Assembly (NCBI RefSeq): GCF_000425105.1 | Contig: NZ_AULD01000015.1 | Span: 1-64,000 of the forward strand | Length of the DNA stretch: 64,000 nucleotides | Source: Agrococcus lahaulensis DSM 17612 | Lineage (GTDB): Bacteria; Actinomycetota; Actinomycetes; Actinomycetales; Microbacteriaceae | Direction of reading: 5' to 3' | In this document: one piece after another, positions 10,114 to 63,825 of the stretch | How positions within the stretch are numbered: position 1 is the first letter of the stretch | How the letters are laid out: each line of letters starts with the position of its first letter | Made by a program: the position numbers and the translations under genes | Notes under the pieces: generated by a model | The model's input: only the letters and a program-made list of their open reading frames with translations | Databases searched by the model: none | What the model was told of the DNA's origin: nothing

Positions 10114-11456
10114 AGCTGATTAAGCACTTCGACGCCTTCCTCAAGAACAGGGTCAATTTGAGTGACGGGCGCATCGAGACGCTCGACAAGCGGGTTGACG
10201 CAGTGAGTAGTTTTCTTTCGAGTGACGACGACGTCATCTCGAACAACTACATCGACCTGATTCCGCAGGGTTCCTACGCCCATCGCACGATCATCAATCC
10301 GGTCGACGCGAACGACGAGTTTGACGCCGATGTATTGCTGGATATGAACGAAGTCGATGGCTGGGAGGCAGAGGACTACGTCGAGCATCTCTACCAGGTC
10401 TTCCGATCGAACGGCACCTACAAGGACAAGGTCAGTCGCCGAAGCCGATGCGTCACGGTGAACTATGCGGGTGAGTTCCACATGGACGTGGTGCCGTTCT
10501 TGACTCGGCACGGCGAGCGGTTCATCACGAACCGCAGCACCAACCAGTTCGAGCGTACGAACCCTGAGGGGTTCAATGAGTGGCTCGATGGCCAGAATCG
10601 CATCACGAGCGGGCGACTGGTCAAGGTCATCCGCTTGCTCAAGTACATCCGGGACTTCAAGAACAACTTCTCGGTGAAGTCCGTGATCCTGACGATCTTA
10701 GTTGGCGAGCAGGTGAACGATGCGGCGCTCTGGGCAGACCCAGATCACTATAAGGACGTGCCGACGGCGCTCGTTAACCTCCTGACAGACCTCAACGACT
10801 ACCTGCAAGCGAATCCGTCGATGCCGAGCATCGATGACCCAAGTTGTCCGACAGAGAACTTCAATCATCGTTGGGATCAAGATCAGTACGCCAACTTCCG
10901 TAACTGGATTGCGACGTACACCAGCTGGGCGAAGGATGCCTACGATGAGACAGACGTAGACGAGAGTCACACGAAGTGGCGGAAGCTTTTCGGCGACAAG
11001 TTCGGCACCTACGATACGAACAGCTCTAAAGCATCGGAGGCCCACCGTTCGATTGCGGGTGTCCGCGATACAGAGGAGTTCATCGAGCACAAGTTCGCAG
11101 GCGTTGCACTCAACCCGGCCTATTCCATCAAGCTGCAGGCAAAGACCGTAAGTCGAAACGGGTGGCGCAACTTTGTGCTCGCGACCCGCGGCAACAAAGT
11201 TAGCCCTGGGCGAAGCATCAAATTCAGTATCAAATCGTCGAACCTTCCTGGCTCGTACGAGCTGTGGTGGAAGGTTCGAAACGTCGGAGCGGAAGCGATC
11301 GCCAAGAACATGATCCGAGGGCAAATTGAGCCAGACGATGGAAGCCGCTCCCGAACGGAGCCCGCAAGTTTTCGAGGGAGCCATTACGTCGAAATCTACG
11401 CAGTCCAGAACGGTGTCGTCGTTGCCAAAGATCACCACCCAGTTCTCATCCAGTGA
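10110..11456 (+). CDS. CBASS nucleotidyltransferase (CD-NTase) with C-terminal AGS-C sensor domain
   Basis: This 448-residue cGAS/DncV-like enzyme has a nucleotidyltransferase core with the GS motif (QGSYAHRT, Gly54-Ser55), metal-binding Asp72 and Asp74 in DEFDADVLLDM, and a third carboxylate, Asp126, in FHMDVVPF, so all catalytic positions are present. A helical domain of the OAS1_C/tRNA-NTase type follows. From about residue 325 comes a beta-rich AGS-C (adenylyl/guanylyl cyclase and SMODS C-terminal sensor) domain, with YELWWKVRNVG and the terminal GSHYVEIYAVQNG region. The enzyme would make a cyclic oligonucleotide on infection to activate the patatin encoded just before. No ubiquitin-like transfer genes (cap2/cap3) or HORMA/TRIP13 genes accompany it, so it resembles the short type I CBASS. 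The nucleotide made cannot be told by eye. Confidence 0.88.
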   Translation: MKLIKHFDAFLKNRVNLSDGRIETLDKRVDAVSSFLSSDDDVISNNYIDLIPQGSYAHRTIINPVDANDEFDADVLLDMNEVDGWEAEDYVEHLYQVFRSNGTYKDKVSRRSRCVTVNYAGEFHMDVVPFLTRHGERFITNRSTNQFERTNPEGFNEWLDGQNRITSGRLVKVIRLLKYIRDFKNNFSVKSVILTILVGEQVNDAALWADPDHYKDVPTALVNLLTDLNDYLQANPSMPSIDDPSCPTENFNHRWDQDQYANFRNWIATYTSWAKDAYDETDVDESHTKWRKLFGDKFGTYDTNSSKASEAHRSIAGVRDTEEFIEHKFAGVALNPAYSIKLQAKTVSRNGWRNFVLATRGNKVSPGRSIKFSIKSSNLPGSYELWWKVRNVGAEAIAKNMIRGQIEPDDGSRSRTEPASFRGSHYVEIYAVQNGVVVAKDHHPVLIQ

Positions 11457-55422: not shown

Positions 55423-56423
<1,001 letters not shown>

Positions 56424-56427
<4 letters not shown>

Positions 56428-57062
56428 GCACCGAGGGATCCGTGGCGCTCGACGGCGCGTGGACGCGCCGCTGGATCGAGGCGGTCGCCGCCGAGGTCTC
56501 GCGCCGGAAGGCCGAGCTCACCGCGCTCGACCGCGCGATCGGCGACGCCGACCACGGCGAGAACCTCGACCGCGGGTTCCAGGCGGTGCTCGGCAAGCTC
56601 GACGCGCTCGACGACGGCGCGACCCCCGCGGCGGTGCTCCGGCTCGTCGCGACGACGCTGATCTCGACGGTCGGCGGAGCGGCGGGGCCGCTCTACGGCA
56701 CGGCGTTCCTCAAGGCGTCGATGGCGGCGGGCGATCGCGACGCGCTCGACGCGGCGGCGCTCGTCGAGGTGCTGACCGCGGCGCGCGACGGCATCGTCGC
56801 GCGGGGCAAGGCGGAGTCGGGCGACAAGACGATGGTGGATGCGTGGACGCCGGCCGTCGAGGCGGCGTCCGCTGCCGGCGACGACGTGCGGGCGGCGCTC
56901 GCTGCCGCGGCCGAGGCCGCCGCCGAGGGCGCGATCGCGACGGAGCCGCTCGTCGCCCACAAGGGCCGGGCCTCCTACCTCGGCGAGCGGGCCGTCGGGC
57001 ACCGCGACCCGGGGGCGGAGTCGACCGCGCTCATCCTCGCCGCGGCGGCGGAGACGCCGTGA
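56424..57062 (+). CDS. dhaL: Dihydroxyacetone kinase ADP-binding subunit DhaL
   Basis: This 212-residue helical barrel carries the ADP coenzyme. [21 protein letters not shown] contains the Mg-binding Asp cluster, and [25 protein letters not shown] and [19 protein letters not shown] are conserved. Starts at a GTG overlapping the dhaK stop by four bases. Confidence 0.95.
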
Positions 57063-57745
57063 CCGTCGGGCTCGCGATCGTCTCGCACTCGGCGCGCATC
57101 GCCGAGGGCGTCGTCGAGCTCGCGGCGCAGATGGCGCCGAGCGTCGCGATCGCCGCGGCCGGCGGCACCGACGACGGCTCGCTCGGCACGAGCTTCGACC
57201 GCGTGCAGGCCGCGATCGCCGAGGCCGACTCGGGCGACGGCGTCGTCGTGCTGTGCGACCTCGGATCGGCGGTGCTGACCGCCCAGACCGCCCTCGACTT
57301 CGCCGAGGCGCCCGAGCGCATCCGCATCGCCGACGCGCCGCTCGTCGAGGGCGCGGTCGCCGCCGCGGTCGCCGCCGAGGGCGGCGCGGGCCTCGAGCAG
57401 GTCGTGGCGGCCGCCGAGTCGGGGCCGCAGGGGGCGGCGCGGCCGGAGCCCACCGAGGGCGGGGGCGCGGTCGTCGAGCCGGAGGACGGCGCGGCGGTGC
57501 TCGAGCTCGAGCTCGAGAACGAGCACGGGCTGCACGCGAGGCCGGCGGCGCTGCTCGTGCGCGCCGCGGGCGGCTTCGAGGCGGAGGTGACGGTGAACGG
57601 CGTCGACGCCTCGAGCCTGCTGCGCGTGCTCGCGCTCGGCCTCGACCGGGGCGCGATCGCGCGCTTCGAGGCGACCGGGCCGCAGGCGCGCGAGGCGATC
57701 GCGGCGATCCGCGAGCTCGCGGAGAGCGGGTTCGGGGAGGGGTAG
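57059..57745 (+). CDS. dhaM: PTS-dependent dihydroxyacetone kinase phosphotransferase subunit DhaM
   Basis: This 228-residue protein has an N-terminal EIIA-like domain (GLAIVSHSARIAEGV with the phospho-accepting His9; GVVVLCDLGSAVLTAQ) and a C-terminal HPr domain (LENEHGLHARPAALLVRAAGG with phospho-His near 157), separated by a Gly/Pro/Glu linker (about 120-142). The EI domain found in the E. coli DhaM is absent, so it must be phosphorylated by a general EI encoded elsewhere. GTG start overlaps the dhaL stop by four bases. Confidence 0.93.
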   Translation: MTVGLAIVSHSARIAEGVVELAAQMAPSVAIAAAGGTDDGSLGTSFDRVQAAIAEADSGDGVVVLCDLGSAVLTAQTALDFAEAPERIRIADAPLVEGAVAAAVAAEGGAGLEQVVAAAESGPQGAARPEPTEGGGAVVEPEDGAAVLELELENEHGLHARPAALLVRAAGGFEAEVTVNGVDASSLLRVLALGLDRGAIARFEATGPQAREAIAAIRELAESGFGEG

Positions 57746-58991: not shown

Positions 58992-59699
58992 TCAGGCGCG
59001 CGCGGGCTGCGGGACCGCGCGGCCGAGGCCGAGCCGCTGCTGCAGGCTGACCGCGAGCAGCGCCTGCCCGAGCACGTACATCACGAGCACCGCGAACGCG
59101 CGGAGCGCATCCGGGATCTCGATGAGGAACAGGCCGATGCCGAGCACGAGCACGCTCGAGAGCAGCAGCAGGCCGCCGAGCAGGCCGGCGGTGTCGATCG
59201 CCGCGAACGCCGCGACGGCGGCGATGAGGAGCGCGTAGAGCAGCACGGGCACCGCGAGCGGACCCGCGCCGATCGCGATGACGCCGCCCGAGATGGCGCC
59301 GACGAGGCCGTAGCCGATCGCCGCCCAGCCCCACGCGAGCGAGCGGCGGCGCGACGGCCACAGCGCGGCCAGGAACGCGACGGCGGCGAGCAGGAACATG
59401 CCCAGCAGCACGATCGTCTCGCCGGTCAGGGAGCCGAGGCCGTCGCCGAGCCAGCACAGCTGCACCGCGGTGACGTGGCAGACGCCCGTCGCGCTCCGCC
59501 AGGCGCCCAGCACGAGCAGCGCGACGGCGATCGGCAGCGCGAGGAGCCACATCGTCAGGTCGCGCGCGAGCGTGAGGAGCGCAGGCTCGCCCACCTCGAG
59601 GTCGAGCAGCAGCGCCGCCGCGAGGTTGATCGCGAGCGCCGTGCCGGAGACCGCGAACCCCGCGCGGAGGGCTCGAGGCAGCGGCGGCATGCCAGCCAT
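58992..59699 (-). CDS. YhhN/TMEM86-family membrane protein, probable lysoplasmalogenase
   Basis: This 235-residue protein has about eight hydrophobic segments and matches the YhhN pattern by eye: CWLGDGLGSL and the closing VMYVLGQALLAVS, where the family has an Asp-rich fourth helix and a YxxGQ end. Known members cleave the vinyl ether of lysoplasmalogens. The match is partial and the call is tentative. Confidence 0.55.
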   Translation of the reverse strand: MAGMPPLPRALRAGFAVSGTALAINLAAALLLDLEVGEPALLTLARDLTMWLLALPIAVALLVLGAWRSATGVCHVTAVQLCWLGDGLGSLTGETIVLLGMFLLAAVAFLAALWPSRRRSLAWGWAAIGYGLVGAISGGVIAIGAGPLAVPVLLYALLIAAVAAFAAIDTAGLLGGLLLLSSVLVLGIGLFLIEIPDALRAFAVLVMYVLGQALLAVSLQQRLGLGRAVPQPARA

Positions 59700-59791
59700 G
59701 CAACCACGGGCCTCGCGATCGGGCGCGGCGGCGTGCGCGTGTCGAGGCCGGTGCTCCGCGATCGCCGTTCCGCGTCGGCGCGGCGCTCGAC

Positions 59792-59927
59792 TAGCATCGA
59801 CTCGTCAGGCGCCCTCGGCGCCGGTCACGACAAAGGCGACCACGCGCTCCGCGCGCGACACACATGGACCCTCGCAGACGAGGCTCCGTGCGTGCCGCGC
59901 GAGCCTCCGGAACCCCTGGAGCGCATC
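59792..59927 (+). promoter_or_regulatory. Promoter and long leader of the TPP-enzyme gene
   Basis: TAGCAT (59792-59797) could be a -10 box. The 130 bases from there to the GTG start hold a small hairpin, GGCGCC-CTC-GGCGCC (59808-59822), and no gene. The length suggests a regulated leader, but I see no known riboswitch pattern. Confidence 0.35.
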
Positions 59928-61643
59928 GTGCCCGACACCGCCGCCTCGACCGCCGACCGCGCCGCGACCGCGGCGACCACCGTCTCCGCCGCCATCGCCG
60001 CCGAGCTTGAGCGCCACGCATCCGTCGTGTTCGCGCTCATGGGCAACGGCAACGCCTGGTTCCTCGACGCCGTCGTGCGGCGCGGCGCCATGGCCGTCAC
60101 GACCGTGCGCCACGAGGCGGCGACGGTCGCCGCCGCCGACGCCCACCACCGGGCGAGCGGTGCGCTGGCGATCGCGACGACGACCTACGGGCCCGGCTAC
60201 ACGAACGCCATCACGCCGCTCGCCGAGGCGGCGATCGCGCGCGTGCCGCTCGTGCTGGTCGTCGGCGACCAGCCGATCGCCGGCCCGCGCCCGTGGGACG
60301 TCGATCAGCGGGCGATCGCGACCGCGGTCGGCGCCCCGACGATCGTCGCGACGCGCGCCGACGCAGCAGCGGCGGCCCGTCGCGCCGTCGAGACGGCGCT
60401 CGTCGAGCGCCGCCCGGTCGTGCTCGCCATCCCGTACGACATCGCGCACCTCGAGGTCGAGGAGGGCGCGGCCGAGTCCGTCGCCGAGGCGGTGGCGGAG
60501 CCGTTCCTCTCGATCGACGCCGAGCAGCTCGCCGGGGTCGCCGAGCAGCTGCTCGAGGCGCGGCGGCCGCTCCTGCTCGCGGGCCGCGGCGCCCACCTCG
60601 CCGGCGCCGCCGAGCCGCTGCGCGCCCTCGCCGCGGCGCTCGGCGCCCGCACCGCGTCGAGCGTGCTCGGCAGCGGCATCTTCGCCGACGACCACCGGCA
60701 CCTCGGCATCTCGGGCGGCTTCGCGTCGGAGCGGGCGGCGGCGGCGATCGAGCGCGCCGACGTCGTGCTCGTCGTGGGCGCGGGCCTCAACCAGTTCCAG
60801 ACCCGCTTCGGCGACGCCTTCGCGCCCGACGCGCGCGTCGTGCAGGTCGACGTGCTCGAGGCCGCGACGAACCCGCGCGTCGACGAGCACGTGCGCGGCG
60901 ACGCGCGGCTCGTCGCCGACGCGCTCGTCGCGCTCGTCGGGGCCGAGGGGGCGGATGCGCGGGGCGACGAGGGGTGGGCCGAGGCCGGCTTCGGCGACGT
61001 CACGGGAGCGCAGCGCGACCGCGAGCCGGGCGACCTGCTCGCGCCCGACGGCCGCCTCGACCCGCGCAGCCTCTTCCACGCGCTCGAGCGCATCCTGCCC
61101 GAGGATCGCGTCATCGTCTCGGACGGCGGCCACTTCATCGGCTGGGCGCCCACGCACCTCTCGGTCGCCGACCCCGAGCGGCTGCTCCTCGTCGGCACCG
61201 CCTTCCAGACGATCGGGCTCGGCTTCCCGAGCGCCGTCGGCGCGGGGGTCGCCCGGCCGGAGTCGACGATCGTGCTCGTCTCGGGCGACGGCGGTGCGCT
61301 CATGGGGATCGCCGACCTCGACTCCGTCGTCCGCTCGGTGCGGCGCGGCGTCATCGTGCTCGTCAACGACGCCGCCTACGGCGCCGAGATCCACCAGTAC
61401 GCGGTGCGCGGCGTCGCGGAGGAGCCGATGCTCATCGAGCAGGTCGACTTCGCCGCGGTCGCGCGCGGCTTCGGCGCCGAGGGCGCGGTCATCGAATCGC
61501 TCGACGACCTCCGCCACCTCGAGGCGTGGCTCGCGAGCGGAGCGGAGGGCGTCTTCCTCGCCGACTGCCGCGTGAGCCGCGAGGTCGTCGCGCCCTACAT
61601 GCTCGAGGTCGTCGACGCCGCGAAGCGAGCCTCGGGGCGCTGA
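59928..61643 (+). CDS. Thiamine pyrophosphate-binding enzyme (acetolactate synthase-like)
   Basis: This 571-residue protein has the three-domain layout of the TPP enzyme family. The cofactor-activating Glu is in VRHEAATVAAADAHHRASG, a central domain spans about residues 190-330, and the TPP/Mg motif GDGGALMGIADLDSVV...VNDAAYG lies near residue 445. It resembles the large subunit of acetolactate synthase or benzoylformate decarboxylase-like proteins; no small subunit gene follows. Starts at GTG after TGGAGCG. The true substrate is unknown. Confidence 0.82.
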   Translation: MPDTAASTADRAATAATTVSAAIAAELERHASVVFALMGNGNAWFLDAVVRRGAMAVTTVRHEAATVAAADAHHRASGALAIATTTYGPGYTNAITPLAEAAIARVPLVLVVGDQPIAGPRPWDVDQRAIATAVGAPTIVATRADAAAAARRAVETALVERRPVVLAIPYDIAHLEVEEGAAESVAEAVAEPFLSIDAEQLAGVAEQLLEARRPLLLAGRGAHLAGAAEPLRALAAALGARTASSVLGSGIFADDHRHLGISGGFASERAAAAIERADVVLVVGAGLNQFQTRFGDAFAPDARVVQVDVLEAATNPRVDEHVRGDARLVADALVALVGAEGADARGDEGWAEAGFGDVTGAQRDREPGDLLAPDGRLDPRSLFHALERILPEDRVIVSDGGHFIGWAPTHLSVADPERLLLVGTAFQTIGLGFPSAVGAGVARPESTIVLVSGDGGALMGIADLDSVVRSVRRGVIVLVNDAAYGAEIHQYAVRGVAEEPMLIEQVDFAAVARGFGAEGAVIESLDDLRHLEAWLASGAEGVFLADCRVSREVVAPYMLEVVDAAKRASGR

Positions 61644-61647
61644 CGCC

Positions 61648-63825
61648 TCAGCGCTCGTCGAGCTCGAGCAGCCGGCGGAAGAGCGAGAGCACCTCGTCGG
61701 GCAGGAGGGGCTCGGCGACCGTGACGTCGCAGCGCGTCTCGATCGTCACGCGCCACAGCGGCGCGTCGGGCAGCACCTGCCCGTCGAGCTCGGCGAGCAC
61801 ACCCGAGGCGACGAGGGTGTCGAGCCGATCGCGATCCTCGCCCGGGATGATCTCGAGCTCGAGCGTCGCGGCGCGCGTGCGGCCGAGCATCCCGCCCGTC
61901 CGCGCGACGCGCACCGCGTCCTCGATCGGCGCGTCCGGCTCCGCGCCCTCGGTCACGCCGACCTCGCGCCACGCCGCGCGCACCGCCTCGGTCTCGCGCG
62001 CATCCGCCCCGAACCTCGCCTCGGCGGCCGCCTCGGTCGCCCGTGCGAACGCGACGAAGTCGGCCTCGGCCGAGAGGCCGCCGGTGAGCGCGTCGAACCA
62101 GATCCGGCCCGGCGCCTCCCACGAGGGGCCGCCGATCGCGGTGGCGACGAGGTGGAACGCGCGGTTGGGGATGCCGGAGTTGATGTGCACGCCGCCGAGG
62201 TCGTCGCGCGTGACGACGAAGTCGCGCATGTGGCCCGGCTGCGGGTCCTTGCCGAGCACGGGGTCGTCGAAGGCGGTGCCGGGCGCGGCCATCGAGCGCA
62301 GCGCGACGCCCTGCACGCGATCGGTGAAGACGCCCGCGCCGATGAGCCAATCCGCCTCGACGGCGTCCTGGCCGAGCGAGTGCTGCTTCACGAGCGAGCC
62401 GAGCACGTCGGCGATCGACTCGTTGAGCGCGCCGGGCTGGTCGCGGTAGACGAGGTCGGCGGTCGCGGCGATCACGCCGTGCCCGAGCTCGTGCCCGATG
62501 ACGTCGATCGCGCCGGTGAAGCCGGCGAACACCTCGCCGTCGCCGTCGCCGAACACCATGCGCTCGCCGTCCCAGAACGCGTTGTCGTAGCGCGTGCCGT
62601 AGTGGACCGTCGCTCGGAGCGGCATGCCGCGCCCGTCGAGCGAGTCGCGGCCGAAGGCCTCGAGCAGCATGCGCCACGCCGCGCCGAGCCCGTCGTAGGC
62701 CTCGTCGGCGGCCGTGTCGCCCGTCGCGGGGCCGCCCTCGGTGCGCACCTCCTCGCCCGGGAGCGTCGTCGTGCCGCGCGCGTCGCTGATGACGCGATCG
62801 GGCGAGGGCTCGCCCGGCACGCGCGCCGGTGCCGGGAGCCCGATGCCCTGTCGGGAGCGACCGGCTCGCTCGCCGCGCACGTCGCGGTCGACGCCGAGCG
62901 TGCGCTCGGCGATGCGCGCGGCGGGCACGTCGGCGGCGGCGAGCCGCTCGAGCAGGTAGGGCGGCACGATGCCGCGGCGCACGGCGTGCACCGCGTCGTC
63001 GGCGCGGGGCGCGGCCGAGCGGGCCTCGAGCGCGTCGTGGATCGCGGGCGCGATGAGCCCGGCCCACAGCTCGTAGCCGGCGGCGGAGGGGTGGAAGCCG
63101 TCGGATGCGTGCCACTGCGGCTCGAGGATCGCGGGCGTGGGGAGGTGGAGCACGTCGGGCGCCGCGGCGGCGATGCGCTGGAGGGCGTCGTCGAGGCTGC
63201 GCGCGTGGCCGCCGAGGAGCGAGCGGATCGGCTGCGGGAGCCACTCGAAGGTGTCGATCTGCGGGGCGCCCGCGACGCACAGCACGCCGCTGGGCCGCAG
63301 GTGGCGCCGGAGGCCGTCGAGGAGCGAGCGCACGGTCGCCGTGAACGCGCCTCGGCTGACGAGCTGCAGCGCGTCGTTGGCGCCGACGAGCAGCAGGATG
63401 GCGTCGAAGGGCTCGTGCGCCTGCCGGTCGAGCACGGGGAGGTGCCGCTCGAGCACCGCCGCGGCCGTCGACCCCTCCTGCCCCTCGATGCGCCACGCGA
63501 CGCTCCGGTCGCCGAGCGATGCGAGCCGCTCGGCGAGCCGCACGGCGAGCGCCTGTTCGAGCCGCTCCGAGCCCACGCCGGTCGCGGTCGAGTCGCCGAC
63601 GAGCAGCAGCCGCAGCGGCTCGGCGCCGCTCGCCGGGCCTACCGTGCCCCAGCGCCGCCCCTGCGGCTCGGGCAGCCACACGAGCGCCGACTGCAGCTGC
63701 TTGGCCTGCCGCAGCAGCACCGGCGCGAGGGCGAAGGTCGCTGGCCGCGCGAGCCGGTGGATGCCGCGCTCCGCTCGGCGCAACGCGGTCGCGCCGAGCG
63801 CTCCGAGCCGTTCCGCGAATCCCAT
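61648..63825 (-). CDS. Three-domain protein: SGNH hydrolase, protealysin-like M4 peptidase, emfourin-like inhibitor domain
   Basis: This 725-residue protein reads as one frame. Residues 72-265 form an SGNH/GDSL hydrolase: VGDSTATGVG (Ser79), LVGANDALQ (148-151 GxND) and DGFHPS (Asp242, His245). Residues 278-300, VHAVRRGIVPPYLLERLA, match the PPxxL propeptide of protealysin-type peptidases. The M4 catalytic domain follows: HELGH (445-449), Glu469 in ALNESIADVLG, and His547 in GGVHINSGIPNRAF. Residues 637-725 resemble emfourin, the small protealysin inhibitor (VRVARTGGMLGRT...LFRRLLELDER), usually encoded by a separate gene. No Sec signal peptide, as in protealysins. The ATG is preceded by GAGGGGGCG. 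An assembly fusion is unlikely because domains and frame are intact throughout. Confidence 0.85.
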   Translation of the reverse strand: MGFAERLGALGATALRRAERGIHRLARPATFALAPVLLRQAKQLQSALVWLPEPQGRRWGTVGPASGAEPLRLLLVGDSTATGVGSERLEQALAVRLAERLASLGDRSVAWRIEGQEGSTAAAVLERHLPVLDRQAHEPFDAILLLVGANDALQLVSRGAFTATVRSLLDGLRRHLRPSGVLCVAGAPQIDTFEWLPQPIRSLLGGHARSLDDALQRIAAAAPDVLHLPTPAILEPQWHASDGFHPSAAGYELWAGLIAPAIHDALEARSAAPRADDAVHAVRRGIVPPYLLERLAAADVPAARIAERTLGVDRDVRGERAGRSRQGIGLPAPARVPGEPSPDRVISDARGTTTLPGEEVRTEGGPATGDTAADEAYDGLGAAWRMLLEAFGRDSLDGRGMPLRATVHYGTRYDNAFWDGERMVFGDGDGEVFAGFTGAIDVIGHELGHGVIAATADLVYRDQPGALNESIADVLGSLVKQHSLGQDAVEADWLIGAGVFTDRVQGVALRSMAAPGTAFDDPVLGKDPQPGHMRDFVVTRDDLGGVHINSGIPNRAFHLVATAIGGPSWEAPGRIWFDALTGGLSAEADFVAFARATEAAAEARFGADARETEAVRAAWREVGVTEGAEPDAPIEDAVRVARTGGMLGRTRAATLELEIIPGEDRDRLDTLVASGVLAELDGQVLPDAPLWRVTIETRCDVTVAEPLLPDEVLSLFRRLLELDER

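Follow-up and report, generated by a model that had tools for sequence, protein, structure and literature searches.

Fusion of an SGNH hydrolase, a protealysin-type M4 peptidase and an emfourin domain in a single protein of Agrococcus

The stretch of DNA analysed in this study, referred to as the window, comprises 64,000 nucleotides from Agrococcus lahaulensis DSM 17612 (contig NZ_AULD01000015.1, positions 1 to 64,000); its host genus, Agrococcus, is a soil-type actinobacterium. Close to the end of the window lies a gene of 725 codons (61648..63825, minus strand, as are all of its parts given below), which starts with ATG and has no internal stop. On the basis of the open reading frame, Pfam matches, and 13 further full-length orthologues, the encoded protein consists of an SGNH hydrolase, a protealysin-type propeptide, an M4 peptidase, and an emfourin domain. 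One Agrococcus protein unites an esterase-like enzyme, a protease, and the protease's own inhibitor, which are separate proteins in other bacteria. Domain assignments were made with the curated cut-offs of Pfam, and every domain named in this gene, the propeptide apart, scores above its cut-off. An earlier note, made from the sequence alone, had proposed that the SGNH, M4, and emfourin parts are joined in this protein. The Pfam search agrees with this, with Lipase_GDSL_2, Peptidase_M4/M4_C, and Emfourin all over their cut-offs, and so do the orthologues. The entire genome contains one Peptidase_M4_C match and one emfourin match, both inside the fusion gene.

The neighbouring gene on one side encodes a thiamine-pyrophosphate (TPP) enzyme (59475-61643, plus strand; three TPP domains in Pfam); it is convergent with the fusion gene and adjoins it in many Agrococcus species. 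DhaK-DhaL-DhaM-like dihydroxyacetone kinase genes are located at 55423-57745 (plus strand), and the translation of the last of them, as judged by eye, has an HPr-like domain behind a DhaM domain. On the other side and beyond the window, a DsbA-like thioredoxin gene (10262-10930 of locus L002; 64261-64929 of contig C6) is divergent from the fusion gene.

The N-terminal helical region (63619..63825, residues 1-69) has a helix predicted at residues 3-47 with low confidence. No signal peptide or membrane segment was seen by hydropathy, the maximum over 17 residues being 1.05 in this protein and 1.0-1.4 among the 14 orthologues, and by this measure the precursor lacks a secretion signal, as do protealysin-like proteases. 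The SGNH/GDSL hydrolase domain follows (63019..63618, residues ~70-269), with a Lipase_GDSL_2 (PF13472) match at residues 76-253 (68 bits, cut-off 33). All four SGNH blocks (Ser, Gly, Asn, and Asp-x-x-His) are present, and S79, G118, N150, D242, and H245 are invariant in 14 of 14 fused orthologues. The fold search returned several esterase families at similar scores (Z 16-19), and therefore the substrate of the SGNH domain cannot be named. A linker (62980..63018, residues ~270-282) that differs in length and sequence among species connects this domain to the propeptide.

The M4 metallopeptidase (61951..62835, residues ~331-625; PF01447 and PF02868) is matched by Peptidase_M4 at residues 370-452 (95 bits) and by Peptidase_M4_C at residues 456-624 (163 bits). 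The zinc-binding motif HELGH (62479..62493, residues 445-449), the downstream Glu, and the catalytic His are all present; H445, E446, H449, E469, and H547 are invariant in 14 of 14 fused orthologues, and D473 is a further key residue of the domain. The nearest solved structure is that of the protealysin precursor (PDB code: 2vqx), which matches residues 283-624, propeptide included, with an E-value of 1e-104, as compared with 1e-48 for the next chain. The same structure leads the fold search (Z 42.2 vs 37.2 for the next one; 1.6 A rmsd over 289 residues, 55% identity), in which the matches listed are M4 and SGNH structures. The M4 part is therefore closer to protealysin than to secreted enzymes of the thermolysin type.

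The protealysin-type propeptide (62836..62970, residues ~286-330) was delimited by the phmmer alignment to the 2vqx precursor. It is short (~50 residues) and carries the PPL motif, IVPPYLLERL as against VIPPYMLRRI in protealysin, from which the alignment runs on through the propeptide; its match to PLN_propep (PF16485) is below threshold (13.6 bits, cut-off 28.1). The first self-cut of protealysin occurs at RS↓VI (PMC6778150). In the alignment, ARS↓VIPPYMLRR of the protealysin precursor corresponds to RRG↓IVPPYLLER of the fusion protein (62944..62979, residues 283-294), which places the predicted cut between G285 and I286. Every Agrococcus orthologue has the motif [RHQ]GIVPP[YF], whereas the linker that precedes it varies in length and content. 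Since the cut bond of protealysin aligns to this position and GIVPP is retained next to a variable linker, the joint between SGNH hydrolase and protease is, by analogy with protealysin, a probable self-cleavage site; the conservation of GIVPP could also reflect the PPL motif alone. In relatives, a Cys is common ahead of the PPL motif (CSIVPPYLL); Agrococcus, Agromyces, and some others have another residue at this position. An internal restart of translation at the joint was considered and set aside, since the only nearby in-frame starts in the window (GTG) have no sequence resembling a ribosome site.

Emfourins, a recently described group of proteins, inhibit proteases of the thermolysin family. 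In the fusion protein, the emfourin domain (61669..61908, residues 640-719) is separated from the peptidase by a short linker (61909..61950, residues ~626-639), on which constraint is weakest in several pairs of orthologues. As the earlier note had suspected, the C-terminus belongs to the emfourin family, with a PF20242 score above the gathering cut-off (32.6 bits, cut-off 27; ~35 bits, up to 35.4, with the C-terminus alone). The solved protealysin-associated protein (PDB code: 6zyg) gives a weak profile match to the domain (E 0.37). The family-conserved RxGG, D, and E (R642, G644, G645, D687, and E705) are retained, being invariant columns both in an alignment of fused and stand-alone emfourins and in 14 of 14 fused orthologues. 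In the NMR structure of an emfourin, an Asp reportedly binds the zinc. As the emfourin domain still has the R, GG, D, and E typical of the family, it is likely to inhibit the M4 peptidase. The reading of the protein as a self-restrained protease is plausible from the retained emfourin residues and from the purifying selection on the domain. In AlphaFold2 models, most of each domain is modelled well while their mutual arrangement is not fixed (pTM 0.50 for the full length and 0.67 for M4-emfourin), and pLDDT falls below 50 at residues 274-286, the joint between SGNH domain and propeptide, and at residues 628-634, in the linker between M4 and emfourin.

The full three-part frame, free of stops, is present in 14 of the 24 Agrococcus genomes sampled, this one included. 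The other 13 assemblies, several of which consist of a single contig, carry the fusion at 71-89% identity, and the same full-length gene is also present in an Agrococcus metagenome-assembled genome. Three of the 24 (G003, G004, and G020) have the SGNH hydrolase and M4-emfourin as separate genes, and three others (G007, G008, and G013) have M4-emfourin without this SGNH hydrolase. Of the remaining four genomes, one (G005) has none of these parts, one (G017) has a contig edge within the gene, and in two incomplete assemblies (G011 and G022) the M4 peptidase was not seen. Seventeen key positions (five in SGNH, seven in M4, and five in emfourin) are invariant in 14 of 14 fused orthologues, so that the intact catalytic residues described in the earlier note are now seen to be conserved across the fused forms of the genus. 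Pairwise dN/dS by the Nei-Gojobori method, which is rough at these GC contents, is 0.16-0.55 for the SGNH domain, 0.06-0.37 for M4, and 0.11-0.38 for emfourin; it is 0.36-0.74 for the SGNH-M4 linker with the propeptide and 0.16-1.25 for the M4-emfourin linker. Purifying selection acts on each of the folded parts, and this, together with the invariant catalytic residues, shows that the fusion is no assembly error. Misassembly had been named beforehand as an outcome that would overturn the finding; the occurrence of the fusion in 13 further assemblies (71-89% identity) excludes both misassembly and chance.

Most of the actinomycete loci that were examined encode M4 and emfourin in separate neighbouring genes. 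They are fused in Agrococcus, Microbacterium barkeri, M. oryzae, Intrasporangiaceae, and Micropruina, which can be summed up as one Micrococcales lineage, and the M4 tree groups the fused and the separate arrangements coherently, with two label changes. The SGNH hydrolase joined to M4, on the other hand, was seen only in Agrococcus among the matches listed in the family and order searches: no triple fusion was found outside the genus among those from 300 family genomes (E up to 1e-10) or among those from 396 order-level genomes (E up to 1e-130). Nor was the SGNH part found near M4 in the examined named loci of other genera. The M4-emfourin fusion predates the addition of the SGNH domain, and the SGNH partner, which the earlier note found unexpected, is a recent addition at the level of the genus that is still a separate, overlapping gene in two species. 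In Agrococcus species without the SGNH hydrolase, the DsbA-like gene directly adjoins M4-emfourin, whereas elsewhere the SGNH hydrolase sits between the two; therefore, it was most simply inserted there, and the neighbourhood of DsbA-like gene and M4-emfourin is probably older than the insertion.

The search for relatives with the parts split also throws light on how the arrangements change. In G004 and G020, the stop of the SGNH gene overlaps the start of the protease gene as ATGA, with an AGGAG-type ribosome site in front. The fused frame of another species (G002; locus L014, 1501-3753) still holds ATGAGC at the joint with AGAGGA ahead of it, and this joint looks, from its sequence, like a recent fusion. 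In G003, the SGNH and M4-emfourin genes (loci L130 and L131) lie 1.3 Mb apart, the former with the DsbA-like gene and an alanine symporter gene and the latter with the TPP enzyme gene, a layout which fits a chromosomal rearrangement with its breakpoint at the SGNH/M4 joint. The 14 fused forms do not make up one clade, and fused and split forms are intermixed on the tree. On the protein tree, the AU test rejected a topology in which the three-part fusion arose once and the split species branch off outside it (p 1.7e-5). This pattern fits both fusion followed by fission and repeated fusion of overlapping genes; the second of these does not require a start and a ribosome site to be made anew.

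A proposed function of the fusion protein, to which we assign a probability of about 0.5, can be described as follows. The protein would be a cytosolic self-processing precursor, in which a single mRNA frame encodes first an SGNH esterase and then a protealysin-type zymogen that has emfourin tethered at its C-terminus. As protealysin does inside the cell, the protease would cut its own chain between G285 and I286, directly before the PPL motif, and thereby free the SGNH domain, which would then act as an independent esterase made 1:1 with the protease. The remaining propeptide and the tethered emfourin would keep the protease inactive. Since dilution cannot separate an inhibitor from the chain it belongs to, the protease would become fully active only when, in addition to removal of the propeptide, the short, unconstrained linker between M4 and emfourin is cut or opens, for example after cell damage. 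A strong cis inhibition by emfourin might prevent the first cut as well.

If the joint is indeed cut, the fused gene would yield the same products as the overlapping gene pair. A broader scheme, which is offered tentatively as one possibility, regards the protein as a self-splitting bacterial polyprotein: the first cleavage site of a zymogen would have become the joint between two enzymes, fused and split genes would give the same products, and the genus would drift between them, while tethering of the emfourin would shift control from a dilution-sensitive to a cleavage-dependent mode. The predicted cut could explain near-neutral switches between gene arrangements. With fused, overlapping, and unlinked layouts in one genus, Agrococcus offers a natural experiment on gene fusion, and a natural enzyme with its inhibitor in the same chain raises the question of what could ever activate such a protease.

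Other explanations have been weighed against the self-processing precursor. The SGNH hydrolase and the protease may instead stay joined as a stable bifunctional enzyme with a shared target, such as complex or cell-surface material; emfourin would then be an internal brake. This would agree with the retention of the fusion, and of two invariant active sites, in 14 of the 24 genomes; however, three relatives have separate genes, in one case far apart, the linker is not constant in either length or sequence, and the likely self-cleavage bond is situated exactly at the join, which makes a lasting union somewhat unlikely. It is also conceivable, though unlikely, that the emfourin domain has lost its inhibitory function and now serves the folding or stability of the protease. 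A tight inhibitor that is permanently tethered would be hard to switch off, and AlphaFold2 docking did not place the domain confidently (pTM 0.67), but every position that is constant in both fused and stand-alone emfourins keeps its residue here, and the evolutionary rate of the domain is as low as that of the catalytic domain.

The earlier note had also suggested a cell-envelope or interbacterial effector, which would be exported. In Serratia, a role of protealysin in competition has been proposed with emfourin as the immunity protein, an effector-immunity-like pair (PMC9505478). In Agrococcus, however, the protein has no signal peptide, secretion marker, or membrane segment by hydropathy, no known delivery domain among its Pfam matches, and no separate immunity gene; the genes on either side encode a TPP enzyme and a DsbA-like protein, and protealysin itself accumulates inside cells (PMC6778150). 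The effector idea is thus weak, and export appears quite improbable. An artefact of assembly or annotation has a negligible chance, given the same frame in 14 genomes, several of them single-contig, and the purifying selection in each folded part.

Among known systems, the pln-m4in operon of Serratia proteamaculans resembles the Agrococcus fusion in the protease subgroup (55% identity to 2vqx) and in the short propeptide with the PPL motif. Its emfourin-family inhibitor comes from the same operon as the protease, whereas in Agrococcus inhibitor and protease form one covalent chain, which also has an SGNH hydrolase ahead of the propeptide. In Leifsonia, Agromyces, Arthrobacter, Cryobacterium, and others, homologous M4 and emfourin are adjacent but encoded by two genes, and therefore the inhibitor can dissociate. 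The fusions of Intrasporangiaceae, Micropruina, and Microbacterium barkeri and M. oryzae have propeptide, M4, and emfourin in one frame (~49-61% identity), but they are without the SGNH domain and many of them have longer M4-emfourin linkers. Stand-alone SGNH/GDSL hydrolases of Microbacteriaceae share the domain and the N-terminal helical region (40-45% identity) but have their own genes, which in the one example checked (G044) lies far from the M4 gene of that genome. In the literature outside subscription papers, neither a fused emfourin nor the SGNH fusion was found to be described. Overall, the Agrococcus fusion is a control variant of the known protealysin-emfourin pair and not a new kind of system.
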